A stretch of 43,524 nt of DNA from Candidatus Heimdallarchaeota archaeon (GTDB taxonomy: Archaea; Asgardarchaeota; Heimdallarchaeia; Heimdallarchaeales; Heimdallarchaeaceae): the NCBI GenBank assembly GCA_016840095.1, contig JAEOSZ010000047.1, forward strand, positions 1 to 43,524. Direction: 5' to 3'. A program made the position numbers and the translations under genes. Positions 20,673 to 26,387 of the stretch are shown one piece after another (position 1 is the stretch's first letter; the number at the start of each line of letters is the position of its first letter). The notes under the pieces are model-generated. The model saw only the letters and a program-made list of their open reading frames with translations, had not been told where the DNA came from and did not search any database.

Positions 20673-22019
20673 TTAGAAACGGTGAATTAGATTAGCAATG
20701 ATCTTCATGCCAATTACAAAATCATCAATAAAGATATTCTCATTTGGGGCATGAGTATTTGAGTTTGAATGACCACAACCTATTGACACACAAGGAACTC
20801 CCTCAAATAGGTACATGGGACCTGATCCTCCCACTAAAGGCCATATATCTGGTTCTTTGTTTTCTACATCTTTTATAGATTCAATAACTTTCTGAGCAAA
20901 TGTATTATTAATAGAAGTTTTAGCTGCTGGGTAACCATCCCATTCTGTTATTTCAATATGCTCAAAGTTATTCTCATCCCAAAATTTCCTAATTTTCTGA
21001 AGTAAATCTACAGGTTCTTGACCAGGTACTAATCTAAAATCAATTTTTGCAAAAGCTTCCTTTGGAGTTACTGTTTTGCTACCTGGACCTTGATATCCAC
21101 TCCATAAACCACAAATATTACAAGTTGGTTCTAGAAAATATTTCGTTTTCATCTCTAGTCCTTCTAGGTTCAAACGAAACTTATCAATACCGAAGTTCTG
21201 TTTGAATAAGTCTTCCTTAAGATTAAAATTTTCAATATTCTTCATATCTTCTAGTGATGGTTCAGGGATATTATCATAGAAACCAGGAACAAGAATTTTG
21301 TCTTTTCTATTCTTCAAAGCTGATAATGCCCAACTCATCTCATAAGCTGCATTGTCAACAAATTGAGTAGAACCACTATGAGTATCTCTACCAATTGTTT
21401 CAGTCCTTAAGTGTAAGTAGAGGATACCTTTGACTCCTAAGTAAACACTTTGAATTCCTTCAACATCTCTACTACCAGATTCCCAGATACAAAGATCAGC
21501 ATCTGTTATGAACTCCTTATTCTTATCAATAAATTCCTTCAAATTTATGGAACCGATTTCTTCTTCTCCTTCAATCACAAATTTGATATTGACTGGAGGT
21601 TTTCCAAAGACCTTATTATATGCCTTTATTGCCTCAAGTCTGCATATTATATCCCCCTTGTTATCAGATACTCCTCTTGCGAATATCTTTTCATCTCTAA
21701 TTGTAGGTTTGAAAGGAGGTGAATCCCACAATTCAACAGGTTCTTCTGGTTGAACATCATAATGATCATAAAACAATAATGTTTTTTCTGCTCCAACATC
21801 CATTTCTGCACAGAAAACTGGATTACCAGCTGTTTCTCCAATAAAACAGGAAAAACCTGCTTCTTCAAAGGATTTACTTAGAAACTCTATAGCTTCTGTA
21901 CTACCCATTCCCTTGGCTGCTACACTAGGAATCTTGAGAAATTCTGAAAGAAGTTTTATTGAATAATCTTTTCTTTGTTCAATTAAATGATAAACATCGT
22001 CCAATGTCATTTGTATCAT
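20673..22019 (-). CDS. M20-family metallopeptidase (dipeptidase), copy 1
   Basis: A 448-residue di-zinc exopeptidase of the M20 CNDP/DapE group. Zinc-site motifs in order: YDHYDVQP (His and the adjacent catalytic Asp), ARGVSDNKG (bridging Asp), EGEEEIGS (Glu base and ligand), a DTHSG lid-domain histidine and the final CGHSNSNTHAPNE histidine. The lid/dimerisation domain occupies about 190-330. Expected activity is cleavage of dipeptides or N-acyl amino acids in the cytosol. It is a tandem paralogue of the next gene, alike throughout its length. A box A-like TTATTAATAAAG about 25 bases upstream of ATG 22019 suggests its own leaderless transcript; an ATG three codons later (22010) matches the start of copy 2. 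Confidence 0.88.
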   Translation of the reverse strand: MIQMTLDDVYHLIEQRKDYSIKLLSEFLKIPSVAAKGMGSTEAIEFLSKSFEEAGFSCFIGETAGNPVFCAEMDVGAEKTLLFYDHYDVQPEEPVELWDSPPFKPTIRDEKIFARGVSDNKGDIICRLEAIKAYNKVFGKPPVNIKFVIEGEEEIGSINLKEFIDKNKEFITDADLCIWESGSRDVEGIQSVYLGVKGILYLHLRTETIGRDTHSGSTQFVDNAAYEMSWALSALKNRKDKILVPGFYDNIPEPSLEDMKNIENFNLKEDLFKQNFGIDKFRLNLEGLEMKTKYFLEPTCNICGLWSGYQGPGSKTVTPKEAFAKIDFRLVPGQEPVDLLQKIRKFWDENNFEHIEITEWDGYPAAKTSINNTFAQKVIESIKDVENKEPDIWPLVGGSGPMYLFEGVPCVSIGCGHSNSNTHAPNENIFIDDFVIGMKIIANLIHRF

Positions 22020-22063
22020 CTAATAGAGGAAAGACCTTTATTAATAATTTCTTAATTATCGGT

Positions 22064-23404
22064 TTATCCAAACCGATGAATTAAATTTGCTATAGTTTTC
22101 ATTCCAATTACAAAATCATCAATGAAGATATTTTCATTTGGAGCATGAGCATTTGCATTAGCATGACCACAACCAATTGAAATACAAGGAACACCTTCAA
22201 ACAAATACATGGGACCTGATCCTCCAACCATGGGCCAAATAACAGGATCATGACCTTCAACTTCCTTTATAGTTTCTATTACTTTCAAGGCAAAAGAATC
22301 ATTGATTGATGTTTGTGCAGCTTCATACCCATCCCAACTTGAGATTTCTATGTGATTGAAACCAATGTCATCCCAATATTTTCGTATTTTTGCAGCTAAA
22401 TCCTTTGCATCTTGTCCAGGAACAAGTCGAAAGTCAACTTTGGCAAAAGCTTCATTTGGTGTAACTGTTTTTCCACCAGGTCCTTGGTATCCACTCCATA
22501 AACCACAGATGTTACAGGTAGGTTCTAAGAAATATTTCTTCTTCATATCCAAACCAGACATACCTAATCTGAAACTATCTACACCAAAATTCTCTTTGAA
22601 TAATTCCTCTTTTAGATTGAAATCCTCAAGAATTTTCATATCTTCAGGAGAAGGTTCAGGAATGTTATCATAGAATCCAGGAACAAGAATCTTGTCATTT
22701 CTATCTTTCAAGGCAGATAAAGCCCAGCTCATTTCATAGGCAGCATTGTTAACGAATTGAGTGTAACCACTATGGACATCTCTTCCTATGGTATTTGTTT
22801 TCAAATGAAGATAGAGAATACCTTTAACACCTAAATAGACTTCCTGAATACCGTCTCCATCTCTTCCTCCAAATTCCCAAATACATCCATCGGCATCTGC
22901 TATGAATTCTTTATTGTCTTTCACAAATTCATCTAGATTTGGTGAGCCAACTTCTTCTTCTCCTTCAATTACGAATTTGATGTTAACTGGAGGTTTTCCA
23001 AATATTTCATTATATGCTTTTATTGCTTGAAGTCTGCAAATTATCTCTCCTTTATTGTCAGAAACACCTCTAGCAAATATCTTTCCATCTCGAATTGTAG
23101 GTTCAAAAGGTGGAGAATCCCATAAATCTATTGGATCTTCAGGTTGAACGTCATAATGATCATAGAACAATAAAGTCTTGTCAGCTCCAACATTCATTTC
23201 AGCACAAAAAACAGGATTACCTGAAGTTTCTGCAAGAAAATATGTAAATCCTGCTTCTTCAAAATGTTTAGAAAGAAACTCTATAGCTTCTGGACCTCCT
23301 GTGTTCTTTGCAGCAATACTAGGTATCTTGAGCAACTCACAAAGTAAATCAACTGAAGCATCTTTGTTTTGTTCAATTATATTATATACATCTTCTAATG
23401 TCAT
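22064..23404 (-). CDS. M20-family metallopeptidase (dipeptidase), copy 2
   Basis: A close paralogue of the gene downstream, with the same zinc-site motifs: YDHYDVQP, ARGVSDNKG, EGEEEVGS, a DVHSG lid histidine and CGHANANAHAPNE. The frame is open up to 23431, but a box A-like TTTTTATG near 23425 would start transcription close to the ATG at 23404, and that start aligns exactly with copy 1 (MTLEDVYN against MTLDDVYH). So 446 residues is the preferred length. By eye about two thirds or more of positions are identical, so the duplication is fairly recent. The copies probably differ in dipeptide preference; nothing in the motifs says how. Confidence 0.88.
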   Translation of the reverse strand: MTLEDVYNIIEQNKDASVDLLCELLKIPSIAAKNTGGPEAIEFLSKHFEEAGFTYFLAETSGNPVFCAEMNVGADKTLLFYDHYDVQPEDPIDLWDSPPFEPTIRDGKIFARGVSDNKGEIICRLQAIKAYNEIFGKPPVNIKFVIEGEEEVGSPNLDEFVKDNKEFIADADGCIWEFGGRDGDGIQEVYLGVKGILYLHLKTNTIGRDVHSGYTQFVNNAAYEMSWALSALKDRNDKILVPGFYDNIPEPSPEDMKILEDFNLKEELFKENFGVDSFRLGMSGLDMKKKYFLEPTCNICGLWSGYQGPGGKTVTPNEAFAKVDFRLVPGQDAKDLAAKIRKYWDDIGFNHIEISSWDGYEAAQTSINDSFALKVIETIKEVEGHDPVIWPMVGGSGPMYLFEGVPCISIGCGHANANAHAPNENIFIDDFVIGMKTIANLIHRFG

Positions 23405-23468
23405 AACTCTCATTTTAGCATAAAAACTCAATCTTTAAGATTTTCTCAATAACTAGAAAAAGAAGAAG

Positions 23469-24236
23469 TTACTTAAGATTAAGTAGTTCCTCATAGAATC
23501 CTTTCACTAATTCTAAAATGATTTCTAAATCCATTGACTTAGTGAAGCTGAATTCAATACTTTTTTTCTCAATTTTCAAGTAGTTTAATGATTCGAATAT
23601 TTTTTTGAAATCATCATCTAAATCCAAAGTTTTCTTGAAATAATTCCAATCAGTAGATGCAGTATTTTCAAAATTGAAATCCTCTTCTAGATTAAGTGAT
23701 AGTAAGAAAGGTTGACTTTTCAAAAAAATACCATTGAAAATGAGATTATTTACTTCATCAATTTGTATAATACTTCCGATTACAAAATTAAGTTTAGATT
23801 TATCTGGAAAATTAAATGAAAAATTAGGTCCTGATTCATCGAAATAAAACTTTAAGTTTTCTACTTCAAGATGTAAAAGATTTTTTCTTAACTTCTCCAT
23901 GATAATTAAATCATCCTCTTCAAGAATCTCACTCATTCTAACCATCTTATCTTCAGAACCTCCAATGATTGATTCTTTCATCTCATAATTCCACATCTCT
24001 TTGTCATCTAGAATACTAAATGAAAAATCATCTCCAGTGCTAATATTACCAAAGAACACCCCCTTTTCTACACGTTTTTGATGAAGCCATTCTTGGTGTG
24101 TTACAACTCTTGGTTTTCCAGGTACTCTGTCAACTAAACCCTTTCTAGAAAGCTTAGAATCTGAAGTTTCTGGTATATCCTTTCTGAAAGAAGCTGTCTC
24201 TTCAATAACTTTTTTCTTTTTTTTCCTGTCCTTCAT
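23469..24236 (-). CDS. Unknown-domain protein, paralogue of the adjacent RING-like protein
   Basis: I do not recognise this protein, but its last 145 residues align with residues about 176-325 of the protein encoded immediately upstream: both contain an L-x-x-x-R-x-x-x-L-x-L stretch, a Y/F-D-E segment, F-x-F-x-F-P, N/K-F-x-x-x-G, then I-x-x-G-I-x-x-K/N-x-Q-P-F-x-L. The N-terminal part is very basic (RKKKKK) and probably disordered. Unlike its neighbour it has no membrane segment and no zinc finger. The frame extends to TTG 24317 and ATG 24296, overlapping the upstream gene by up to 52 bases. ATG 24236, 30 bases past that gene's stop, is a simpler start. The tandem arrangement and shared domain suggest partners in one complex. 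Confidence 0.55.
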   Translation of the reverse strand: MKDRKKKKKVIEETASFRKDIPETSDSKLSRKGLVDRVPGKPRVVTHQEWLHQKRVEKGVFFGNISTGDDFSFSILDDKEMWNYEMKESIIGGSEDKMVRMSEILEEDDLIIMEKLRKNLLHLEVENLKFYFDESGPNFSFNFPDKSKLNFVIGSIIQIDEVNNLIFNGIFLKSQPFLLSLNLEEDFNFENTASTDWNYFKKTLDLDDDFKKIFESLNYLKIEKKSIEFSFTKSMDLEIILELVKGFYEELLNLK

Positions 24237-24265
24237 TATCTTCTTAATCCCTGTTTTTTTGTGTG

Positions 24266-25531
24266 CTAGTATGATTCTTTTAGTTGATCTAACCATCTGG
24301 TTTGCACTTCTTGGCAATTAGGACATTTTTGATGATTATCTAACCACATTATCATGTGTAATTTGTGAGCATAAACTCCGCAGCATGGTGTTTGAACTAT
24401 ATCTTCTTTTTCTGAAGCATGAAGTGCCAACCTACAAATCATACAATATGGTCTAGGATTTCCACATGATGTACATTCAGTATCTTCAAAGCTTAATTTT
24501 TCACCACAACTAAGACACTTTAATTCTTCAACATCTAAAATCCCTATATCAATTCTTAATAGCTCAGAAGAGAGTTTCTTAACTAAATTTAGGTAGTTTT
24601 CTAAATTATCAATATCTGTTATATTTCCAGTTATATATTTCTTGTCAATCATTAAATGATCAATGAACTCATAATTCTCTTCTAATATCTGCTTAAATTC
24701 TTCTTTTGCTAGAATTCCTTCTTTGACAATTGAGAAACTGCTAATAACAGCAAATTTGTTCTCTTTTTCAAGTTCACTTTTGTGAAGAGTTAAGGAAAAT
24801 GGTTGGTATTTATTGAGAATTCCCTCTACAATAATCTTTTTATCAGATACTATGTTTAGAACTACTCCTGTAATAAAAGCAAACTTTCCTTCTTTTGGGA
24901 ATTCAAAAATGAGATTTATTTTTGCTTCGTCATAGGTAAGTTGGATATTCTTACCACCTAATTCAATTATTTTTTGTCTAGTATTCCCAAGAAATTGAAG
25001 AGTTTTCTTATCAAAAACTTGTTCTAGACTAGGATTATATCCAGAAGTTCTTACTTCTGCTGCACTTGATAAGAAATCTGCAAATCTACTAATTGCTGGG
25101 AAATCATTAAACGCTCCTCCAATTTTTCCATAATATTTCCTCTTTCTTACATCATCATCATGCATAATTTCAGCTGTACTAATCAGAACACTTACAGGCT
25201 GTCCATGGTCAGCTACAGGTCCTATATCTACAAATCCAGGGCTTGTATATCTAGATTGATCTTTATGAATAGAACGTGGAACTTGATGACTATCTCCTAC
25301 TCTTAAAAGTTTGTCGACTTCTTCTTTGGCACTTTTATTAGCAGATCTCCTTGATATAATAATTAAAGCAGGTAAAGATACGACTATTATCACTTCAACT
25401 ACTATAGCATAATATAGGTCAGGTATAGCTAAAAATATTATTACTGTTAAAACAATTAATAACACTGTTGCACTAATTTCCAATAGTCTTGATGTAAAGA
25501 ATTCTTTTATTCTATTAGCCCCATTCTTCAT
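24266..25531 (-). CDS. Two-TM membrane protein with zinc ribbon and RING-H2-like finger
   Basis: A 421-residue protein. Two adjacent hydrophobic helices (about 16-36 and 40-60) anchor the N-terminus. A linker leads to a domain (about 176-325) shared with the downstream gene's product, followed by two zinc modules. First is a zinc ribbon, C339/C342 and C353/C356. Second is a RING-like finger, C363-x2-C366, C383-C384-G, H389-x2-H392, W396-L and C403-P-x-C406. The spacing from the H/C pair through Trp-Leu to Cys-Pro-x-Cys is identical to eukaryotic RING-H2 fingers; the fourth ligand position is Val, but an extra Cys (383) precedes it. RING fingers recruit ubiquitin E2 enzymes, and Asgard archaea have ubiquitin systems, so a membrane E3-like role is possible; no E2 or ubiquitin gene is in this window. 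Confidence 0.6.
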   Translation of the reverse strand: MKNGANRIKEFFTSRLLEISATVLLIVLTVIIFLAIPDLYYAIVVEVIIVVSLPALIIISRRSANKSAKEEVDKLLRVGDSHQVPRSIHKDQSRYTSPGFVDIGPVADHGQPVSVLISTAEIMHDDDVRKRKYYGKIGGAFNDFPAISRFADFLSSAAEVRTSGYNPSLEQVFDKKTLQFLGNTRQKIIELGGKNIQLTYDEAKINLIFEFPKEGKFAFITGVVLNIVSDKKIIVEGILNKYQPFSLTLHKSELEKENKFAVISSFSIVKEGILAKEEFKQILEENYEFIDHLMIDKKYITGNITDIDNLENYLNLVKKLSSELLRIDIGILDVEELKCLSCGEKLSFEDTECTSCGNPRPYCMICRLALHASEKEDIVQTPCCGVYAHKLHMIMWLDNHQKCPNCQEVQTRWLDQLKESY

Positions 25532-25571: not shown

Positions 25572-26387
25572 TCATTCAAAGGAACCTTGAGTAACATGCT
25601 GTTGACTCAGATATTCTACAGCAAGCTCATATTGATGAGGTTTATCAACATCCATAGCTACTTCTGCAAATGGAACAGTTAGACTCTTCCCTTTCAAACC
25701 CAAAGCTCTAGCAAAGATTTTTTCAGCTTGTTTCAAGGAGAGTTTTCCCCTCATAGCTTGAATTGATCTGAAAGGGGAGAGAAAGAAAGCTATCAAGAAG
25801 AAGTTCTTGCGTTTCTCTTGTATTTTTTGTAATTTTTTCTTCCATTTAGAAAATTTATGAGCTCTAAATAAATATAAATCTCCGGCACATATTCTGTTCT
25901 TCTTAAAATTGTAAAAGGATCTACCTGAACCTGGGAAAGTTTCATCCATCACTTCTTTGGTTACAATAGACTGTACAAAATCTGCATCAAGTTTAAGTGC
26001 ATTTTCTATGAAATGATCTACTGCAGTCGGTTTGATTGTTGGAATATCTCCACTTGCTACCGCAACATATTCAGGAGGTCCTCCTTCATTGCTAATAAAC
26101 CATTGATTCCAAGCTTCAAGCTTTTCTGTAATTTTACTTTCTGGTGGAAATGGGATATATATCACATCATCATCTGGAAATTGCTCTTTTTTCATTCCCA
26201 CAACGAATATTCTTCTAACAAATTTGCTCTTTTTTAATGCGCCAATTACCCATTCTAGCATAGGTTTACCACAAATTGGCAAAAGAGCTTTCAGAGGGAT
26301 TCTTTTCTTCTTACTCAGTTTGAAAAGATCAATATCATGTTTAGATCTGCCAACAAGTACAAGTGTATCGGTAGCCTTGCCCCCCAT
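25572..26387 (-). CDS. MobA/CobY-like nucleotidyltransferase
   Basis: A 271-residue NTP-transferase-fold protein. The family's KALLPICGKPMLEWVI segment (about residues 32-47) binds the base and sugar, ASGDIPTIKPTAVDHFI (about 111-127) holds the metal-binding Asp, and VAMDVDKPHQYELA near the C-terminus carries the second acidic metal site. The usual Gly-rich loop before Lys (L-A-G-G-x-G-x-R) is replaced by LVLVGRSKHDIDLF, so the nucleotide phosphate grip is altered. A basic, hydrophobic insertion (about 185-215, FFLIAFFLSPF) is unusual. Family members attach NMP to cofactors or sugar phosphates; the substrate is unknown. A box A-like TATTTATTAA lies about 27 bases before the ATG. Divergent from the PLP enzyme gene. 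Confidence 0.68.
   Translation of the reverse strand: MGGKATDTLVLVGRSKHDIDLFKLSKKKRIPLKALLPICGKPMLEWVIGALKKSKFVRRIFVVGMKKEQFPDDDVIYIPFPPESKITEKLEAWNQWFISNEGGPPEYVAVASGDIPTIKPTAVDHFIENALKLDADFVQSIVTKEVMDETFPGSGRSFYNFKKNRICAGDLYLFRAHKFSKWKKKLQKIQEKRKNFFLIAFFLSPFRSIQAMRGKLSLKQAEKIFARALGLKGKSLTVPFAEVAMDVDKPHQYELAVEYLSQQHVTQGSFE

Follow-up and report, generated by a model that had tools for sequence, protein, structure and literature searches.

A candidate membrane-anchored RING-type ubiquitin ligase with a CCDC47-like domain in a Heimdallarchaeota genome

What is the role of a protein from a Candidatus Heimdallarchaeota archaeon that begins with hydrophobic helices and carries a zinc ribbon and a RING-like finger at its C-terminal end? 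Its gene lies at 24266..25531 on the minus strand of contig C22, the 43,524 bases of which form the window analyzed here; the genome assembly is of 3.44 Mb in 165 contigs (89% complete, 7.8% contaminated). The gene is an exact open reading frame for 421 amino acids with relatives in the same genus, of which six are 55–75% identical over the whole length (AB_125 being the closest at 75%) and a seventh is 34% identical. Based on its sequence and predicted structure, we regard the protein, on balance, as a candidate membrane-anchored RING-type ubiquitin ligase (E3) carrying a CCDC47-like domain for clients or partners. The original prediction from the DNA alone was of a membrane E3-like ligase; this reading gains from the ubiquitin-system genes of the genome and from matches to RING-H2 ligases, and loses from a RING profile score under the cut-off and from a glutamine at the linchpin position.

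The two N-terminal hydrophobic helices first noticed by eye were borne out by hydropathy analysis, in which 19-residue windows peak at 2.78 and 2.76, and by an AlphaFold2 model with a helical hairpin formed by residues 2–35 and 39–81. The transmembrane hairpin was placed at approximately residues 16–60 (25352..25486, on the minus strand like all parts of the gene given below). Basic residues flank it on both outer sides, so by the positive-inside rule both ends of the protein, and with them the domain and the finger, would be cytosolic. There follow a predicted disordered linker at residues 76–162 (25046..25306; predicted local distance difference test score, pLDDT, below 50 for residues 75–162), a CCDC47/TtfA-like domain at residues 163–331 (24539..25045) assigned from the model and from fold and profile comparison, a zinc ribbon of C339, C342, C353 and C356 (24458..24523) identified by alignment and matched to WDR24 within residues 335–415, and the RING-like finger C363-x2-C366 ... 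C383-C384-x4-H389-x2-H392-x3-W396 ... C403-P-N-C406 (24314..24445), supported by alignments and by profile and fold searches. The model was run with 40 sequences and has a mean pLDDT of 68.3 and a predicted template modeling score of 0.47, so that its placement of the domains is not reliable. Within it, an alpha/beta domain is predicted at residues 165–327 (pLDDT blocks of 67–92, mostly above 70), and the ribbon-finger region scores about 80.

Conservation of the ribbon and the finger was examined in two alignments. In 26 family members of the same genus, C339, C342, C353, C356, C363, C366, C383, C384, H389, H392, W396, C403 and C406 are all invariant, in keeping with the ribbon and second finger that had been proposed. 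A set of 40 rows comprised the window protein and 39 database proteins, one of which (P0040) has gaps across the finger's second half; in this set the C383-C384 pair is found in 40 of 40 rows and H389, H392, W396, C403 and C406 each in 39 of 39. Because the motif is invariant across both sets, it is not a product of chance. The original prediction saw a valine where a RING-H2 finger has its fourth ligand, and an extra cysteine beside the third. Position 386, in the register of ligand 4, is indeed occupied by Val (37) or Ile (3) in the 40 rows and by Val (19), Ile (4) or Thr (3) in the 26, with Cys or His in none. The extra cysteine, C384, is present throughout, and since C383 and C384 are both invariant, the finger has eight candidate zinc ligands (C363, C366, C383, C384, H389, H392, C403 and C406), conserved in RING order in every row with letters there. 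The valine is real, but we rejected the idea that the finger lacks a ligand: the apparent gap is an artefact of register, as the invariant adjacent cysteine can take the role. In the six closest orthologues, the finger (83–88% identity) and the tail (85–92%) are the slowest-changing parts of the protein. We rejected a PHD finger: by eye, the W-L six residues ahead of C-P-x-C suits a RING better, and no PHD model was among the matches of the 421-residue protein at E<=10, which was the only other PHD test made.

Four longer relatives were also aligned. Three of these (L025, L027 and L070) have C-x2-C, its second cysteine falling at C384, and L026 has C384 only. L070:1176-3128(-), on contig C45, encodes 650 residues that show winged-helix/PCI-like matches and include a C-terminal ribbon-RING whose ligands 3 and 4 form the C-x2-C. 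Many related genomes have frames of similar length, about 690 residues. A 1001-residue protein at L067:2278-5283(-), on contig C49, has a helicase-like P-loop (by eye) and a RING-like finger at its end.

Profile searches agree with the RING assignment. Each of the 26 family members matches zf-RING_2 at E<=10 (best 1.9e-7), and the genome has 16 zf-RING_2 matches, 11 of them above the cut-off and some of the same build as the 421-residue protein. When the PDB was searched with a profile built from 25 ribbon-finger regions, RING-H2 ligases came up at 2.7e-7, followed by a WD-repeat chain of the IFT type at 1.8e-6 and by the GATOR2 subunits MIOS, WDR24 and WDR59 at 1e-5 to 0.01. A WD-repeat chain in 8f5o, which has the same TPCCG stretch, is presumably IFT121. 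In the model, the ribbon-finger region adopts a RING fold. A viral structure library gave no match at E 0.001 or better, the best being a mimivirid E3 named LAP (1.3e-3), with an APC11-type RING-H2 protein at 0.031; a search of NCBIfam gave nothing useful.

The positions by which a RING would contact a ubiquitin-conjugating enzyme (E2) are kept: position 365 is Val or Ile in 40 of 40 rows, position 396 is Trp in 39 of 39, and position 404 is Pro in 38 of 39. The linchpin position after the last ligand is more variable, being Lys in 19, Gln in 13, Arg in 6 and Asn in 1 of 39 rows (basic K/R in 25), and Lys in 13, Gln in 7, Arg in 4 and His in 2 of the 26-row alignment. The same genome encodes the other components of a ubiquitin system. 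It has two ubiquitin-like genes, one of whose products ends in KGGL, three ThiF (E1-type) genes, and four UBC-fold genes, two of which look, by eye, like UEVs that have lost catalysis. One of the E2s, which can be aligned with UbcH5b at 7.1e-28, retains YPFKPP and W-[ST]-PA, the loops through which an E2 contacts a RING. A genome lacking an E2 or a ubiquitin-like protein, which would have spoken against a ligase, is therefore ruled out, and the candidate ligases could be tested in vitro now with the candidate E1, E2 and ubiquitin from the same genome. On contig C159 (L065:1866-7662), a ubiquitin-type cluster includes a membrane RING-like protein within the pathway's own cluster. The order is E2, a JAMM-motif protein and a membrane protein of several helices that bears a RING-like finger (JAMM motif and finger by eye), then a frame for another membrane protein, one on the opposite strand, a ubiquitin-like protein and E1.

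Comparison with known ligases is consistent with a RING of the H2 type, with differences. RING-H2 ligases (RNF165/ARK2C, Arkadia, RNF38, HRD1 and AMFR) share with the 421-residue protein the spacing of C-x2-C, H-x2-[HC]-x3-W-L and C-P-x-C, the hydrophobic, Trp and Pro E2-contact positions, and the predicted fold. HRD1 and AMFR are membrane-anchored, as is this protein. It differs from the RING-H2 ligases in having a ribbon ahead of the finger, a Gln linchpin, a CCDC47-like domain, and CC rather than C-x-H at ligands 3 and 4, so that the RING-H2 spacing originally proposed holds from H-x2-H through W-L to C-P-x-C and fails at the third and fourth ligands. A parallel in the archaea is srfp of Caldiarchaeum subterraneum, a small RING finger protein of a ubiquitin operon that, in the available part of its report, is a demonstrated E3 in which C3 and H4 are misaligned and there is an additional cysteine, C3B (PMC5654768). 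Compared by description, srfp resembles the window finger in being an archaeal RING-H2-type E3 with an extra Cys by ligand 3, and we matched its E2-contact positions to those of the window finger. The arginine that we matched to position 407 is described there as impairing the reaction when changed (PMC5654768). The available description of srfp mentions no anchor, ribbon or CCDC47-like domain, which sets it apart from the 421-residue protein (PMC5654768).

Several observations weigh against ligase activity. The 421-residue protein scores 17.4 or 22.4 bits against zf-RING_2, below the Pfam cut-off of 27.3, and the adjacent cysteines depart from the C-x-H pattern that is canonical at ligands 3 and 4. 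Judged from sequence, what speaks most clearly against full ligase activity is Gln407, which is found in the 421-residue protein and its six closest orthologues; the two more distant proteins that occupy this gene slot carry Lys and Arg there. In addition, the best fold match of the predicted ribbon-finger structure is GATOR2, and the accessible text on yeast SEAC states that its RINGs 'clearly play a structural role' (PMC9646525). These last two points favor the main rival explanation, which we consider unlikely: that the ribbon-RING is a structural docking module like those of GATOR2/SEAC or IFT-A, assembling a membrane complex in the absence of ligase activity, with the RINGs of the paralogues possibly pairing. 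The GATOR2/SEAC (WDR24, MIOS, WDR59) and IFT-A subunits do have a C-terminal zinc ribbon followed by a RING-like finger, as found here, but they are beta-propeller and solenoid proteins that lack a membrane hairpin; in the AlphaFold2 model of the 421-residue protein the ribbon-RING is preceded by a hairpin, a linker and an alpha/beta domain. Against a purely structural module stand the E2-contact positions kept in nearly all rows, the basic linchpin in 25 of 39, the ubiquitin-system genes of this genome, one cluster of which includes a RING-like gene, and the finger profile, which scores RING-H2 ligases above GATOR2.

The domain between linker and ribbon, at first described as novel and of about 150 residues, instead proved CCDC47/TtfA-like by model and profile comparison, so that the idea of a domain with no known fold was discarded. 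The models of the 421-residue protein and of its fingerless paralogue (described below) both align best with a translocon subunit, which we take to be CCDC47, and with mycobacterial TtfA. To our knowledge, TtfA has no zinc finger. It is described, in the part of the source available, as an accessory protein of the lipid transporter MmpL3. CCDC47, of the PAT complex and the multipass translocon, is anchored in the membrane, and its cytosolic globular domain has the fold predicted for the domain of the candidate E3. According to the accessible description, CCDC47 crosses the membrane once and extends a C-terminal coiled coil to the ribosome exit, with no RING mentioned, whereas the candidate E3 has a hairpin and a ribbon-RING. 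The coiled-coil latch is absent from the AlphaFold2 model of the 421-residue protein, which has the ribbon-RING in its place. Pfam CCDC47 (PF07946) is not among the 11 Pfam matches of the protein at E<=10, nor is the locus among the PF07946 matches of the genome at E<=1.

Kinship to CCDC47 could be examined by way of Asgard proteins of about 300 residues, consisting of a membrane helix, the domain and a charged tail. Pfam CCDC47 at E<=0.01 found matches in 27 of 195 genomes of the phylum (above the cut-off in 6) and none in the 14 control genomes; at E<=1, two control genomes also matched, neither above the cut-off. A profile of the 300-residue family itself finds 36 of the 195 genomes. In a tail test of seven sequences, six match at E<=1 and two exceed the cut-off (L111 at 1.5e-9 over residues 14–195, and L110 at 1.1e-7); L073 cut free of its tail matches at 3.7e-5, below the cut-off. 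These results indicate that the CCDC47 likeness of the family does not come from the tail alone. The homologues comprise L077:2927-3835(-) (G000:C25), L073-L076, L078-L088, L106-L118 and L127-L130, with L073 matching at 2e-9, and in several genomes of the genus they adjoin a small-GTPase-like gene (by eye). The CCDC47-like protein of the genome studied here has no Pfam match at E 0.1 on its own; its relatives do match. Searches of PDB sequences with the family found no CCDC47.

Profile-profile comparison of the E3 family with this Asgard family gave a P value of 0.014 when 15 similar sequences were used and of 4.8e-4 when 12 diverse ones were. Trimming to the domain lowered it to 1.1e-4, and the addition of members of another Asgard family to 6.1e-5 (score 35.9 over 98 columns). 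The trimmed alignments kept 26/26 (A1), 12/12 (A9) and 35/36 (A8) rows, and hhalign used 24 of the 26. The hhalign probability was 65%, so we take the comparison as support, not proof, that the E3 domain is kin to the Asgard CCDC47-like proteins. An alignment led by fingerless sequences gave 4.9e-4 untrimmed but only 0.0016 over 41 columns when trimmed, and three fingerless sequences alone gave nothing.

These data bear on a second rival explanation, that the finger is ligase-like but the CCDC47 likeness reflects a common alpha/beta arrangement rather than kinship, leaving no link to membrane-protein biogenesis. We hold this to be possible but not probable. Two divergent paralogue models share the top entries TtfA, 6w6l and 7tm3, which for the fingerless model lie about 2 Z units above the next fold. 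The score of 35.9, in the same register as in the earlier comparisons, compares with 14.3 for a reversed profile and at most 20.1 in 200 block shuffles; the other controls gave 12.2 for a reversed profile, at most 18.3 in 150 column shuffles and at most 20.6 in 100 block shuffles.

The next gene (23469..24317, minus strand) encodes the fingerless paralogue in tandem, its listed TTG start overlapping the candidate E3 gene; the database copy, P0044, has 275 residues and starts 7 codons later. Its CCDC47/TtfA-like domain, placed by a model fold match, spans 23472..23948 (minus strand) and is 27–28% identical to that of the candidate E3 (E 2e-13 to 4e-15). As the original prediction held, the paralogue has neither finger nor hydrophobic helix, the best window in its first 100 residues reaching -0.09. 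That such a partner is soluble by nature was rejected: among eight fingerless database proteins, P0041, P0042, P0043 and P0045 have a hairpin, and P0044 (the copy of this genome), P0046, P0047 and P0048 have none. The fingerless copy stands in tandem with a finger gene here and in G004 (L049). In G012 (L024) it occupies the slot, and the stretch read there contains no copy with a finger; only a short match to the pyridoxal phosphate (PLP)-enzyme gene lies beside it. Relatives of the fingerless domain with hydrophobic N-terminal segments lie at another locus (L122:883-1665(-), L123:537-1304(-) and L124:815-1597(-)), adjoined in two of the three by an aminotransferase-like gene (by eye).

The third rival, a pseudo-ligase or modulator whose finger binds E2, fails to activate it because of the Gln linchpin, and competes or pairs with other RINGs, draws on Gln407 and on a tandem fingerless copy that suggests the use of partner modules, but it is improbable given that finger and tail are the most conserved parts of the protein and that other paralogues of the same build have a Lys or Arg linchpin.

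If the protein is a membrane-anchored ligase, the hairpin would hold it in the cell membrane with both ends cytosolic, and the ribbon and finger would recruit a ubiquitin-charged UbcH5-like E2 through I365, W396 and P404. Binding of clients or of a partner at the membrane would fall to the CCDC47-like domain, with newly synthesized membrane proteins as plausible candidates, and the fingerless neighbor would modulate the ligase, either by sharing these clients or by pairing with the domain. We infer a link to membrane-protein biogenesis from fold kinship only. If true, ubiquitin surveillance of membrane proteins would be older than eukaryotes. Rather doubtfully, we suggest that a Heimdallarchaeia family of membrane ligases on a CCDC47-type domain, beside the lineage's own true CCDC47 homologue, represents an early translocon quality control, the source from which the eukaryotic PAT complex and ligases like those of endoplasmic reticulum-associated degradation could descend.

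That Heimdallarchaeota have a RING E3 is no novelty in its own right, because three family members (P0001, P0018 and P0035) already bear the database name 'E3 ubiquitin protein ligase' and a whole ubiquitylation cascade is reported, in the part of the source available, to be encoded by Asgard archaea (PMC9192718). The accessible portion of the survey behind that report lists IPR018611 as one InterPro entry for E3 enzymes (PMC9192718), and a review, in its available part, reports that its method detected no archaeal homologues of human E3 domains (PMC11354881). Within the searches made, what is new is the architecture of membrane hairpin, CCDC47-like domain, zinc ribbon and CC-type RING, its multiplication inside one genus, and the link of a putative ubiquitin ligase family to a domain known from the eukaryotic multipass translocon. 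In the open-access literature on ubiquitin and RING in Asgard archaea or Heimdallarchaeota, no title or abstract describing this architecture was found, nor was any open-access paper found pairing CCDC47 with TtfA or with Asgard archaea.

Some match to the candidate E3 was found in all 23 genomes searched in the taxonomic family, its own included, and a whole or near-whole match in 8 of the 23 (seven over residues 1–421 and one over 11–421). At eight related loci the gene lies between a PLP-enzyme gene and an M20 peptidase gene, except that the L048 contig ends before the latter; L054 is the most distant of the related loci (30% identity). In close relatives the flanking genes are mostly 75–98% identical, compared with 54–75% for the candidate E3. 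At least five genes of the genome match a domain-plus-finger profile (on C22, on C145 and three on C11), and the four besides that on C22 each have a hydrophobic N-terminal segment; paralogue counts are lower bounds because scoring was limited to 9 candidates in any one genome (here, 9 of 33). Among 19 RING-bearing relatives checked, including the C145 gene, 14 have a hydrophobic N-terminal segment and 5 have none. At E<=1e-5 the domain-plus-finger profile matches in 94 of 195 genomes of the phylum, and among the matches listed outside the genus most span the ribbon-finger part alone. L125 and L126, from another family of the order, have a CC-type finger behind a shorter N-terminal part.

The neighbors of the candidate E3 gene in the window resemble metabolic genes by eye and lend no operon support to the ligase interpretation. 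A nucleotidyltransferase-like gene (by eye) lies directly upstream at 25572-26387; a tblastn search at 1e-6 did not match it in any of the related loci L048-L057. On the other side, 20673-23431 holds two tandem M20-type peptidase genes, and the related loci that reach that far have one, matched by both.
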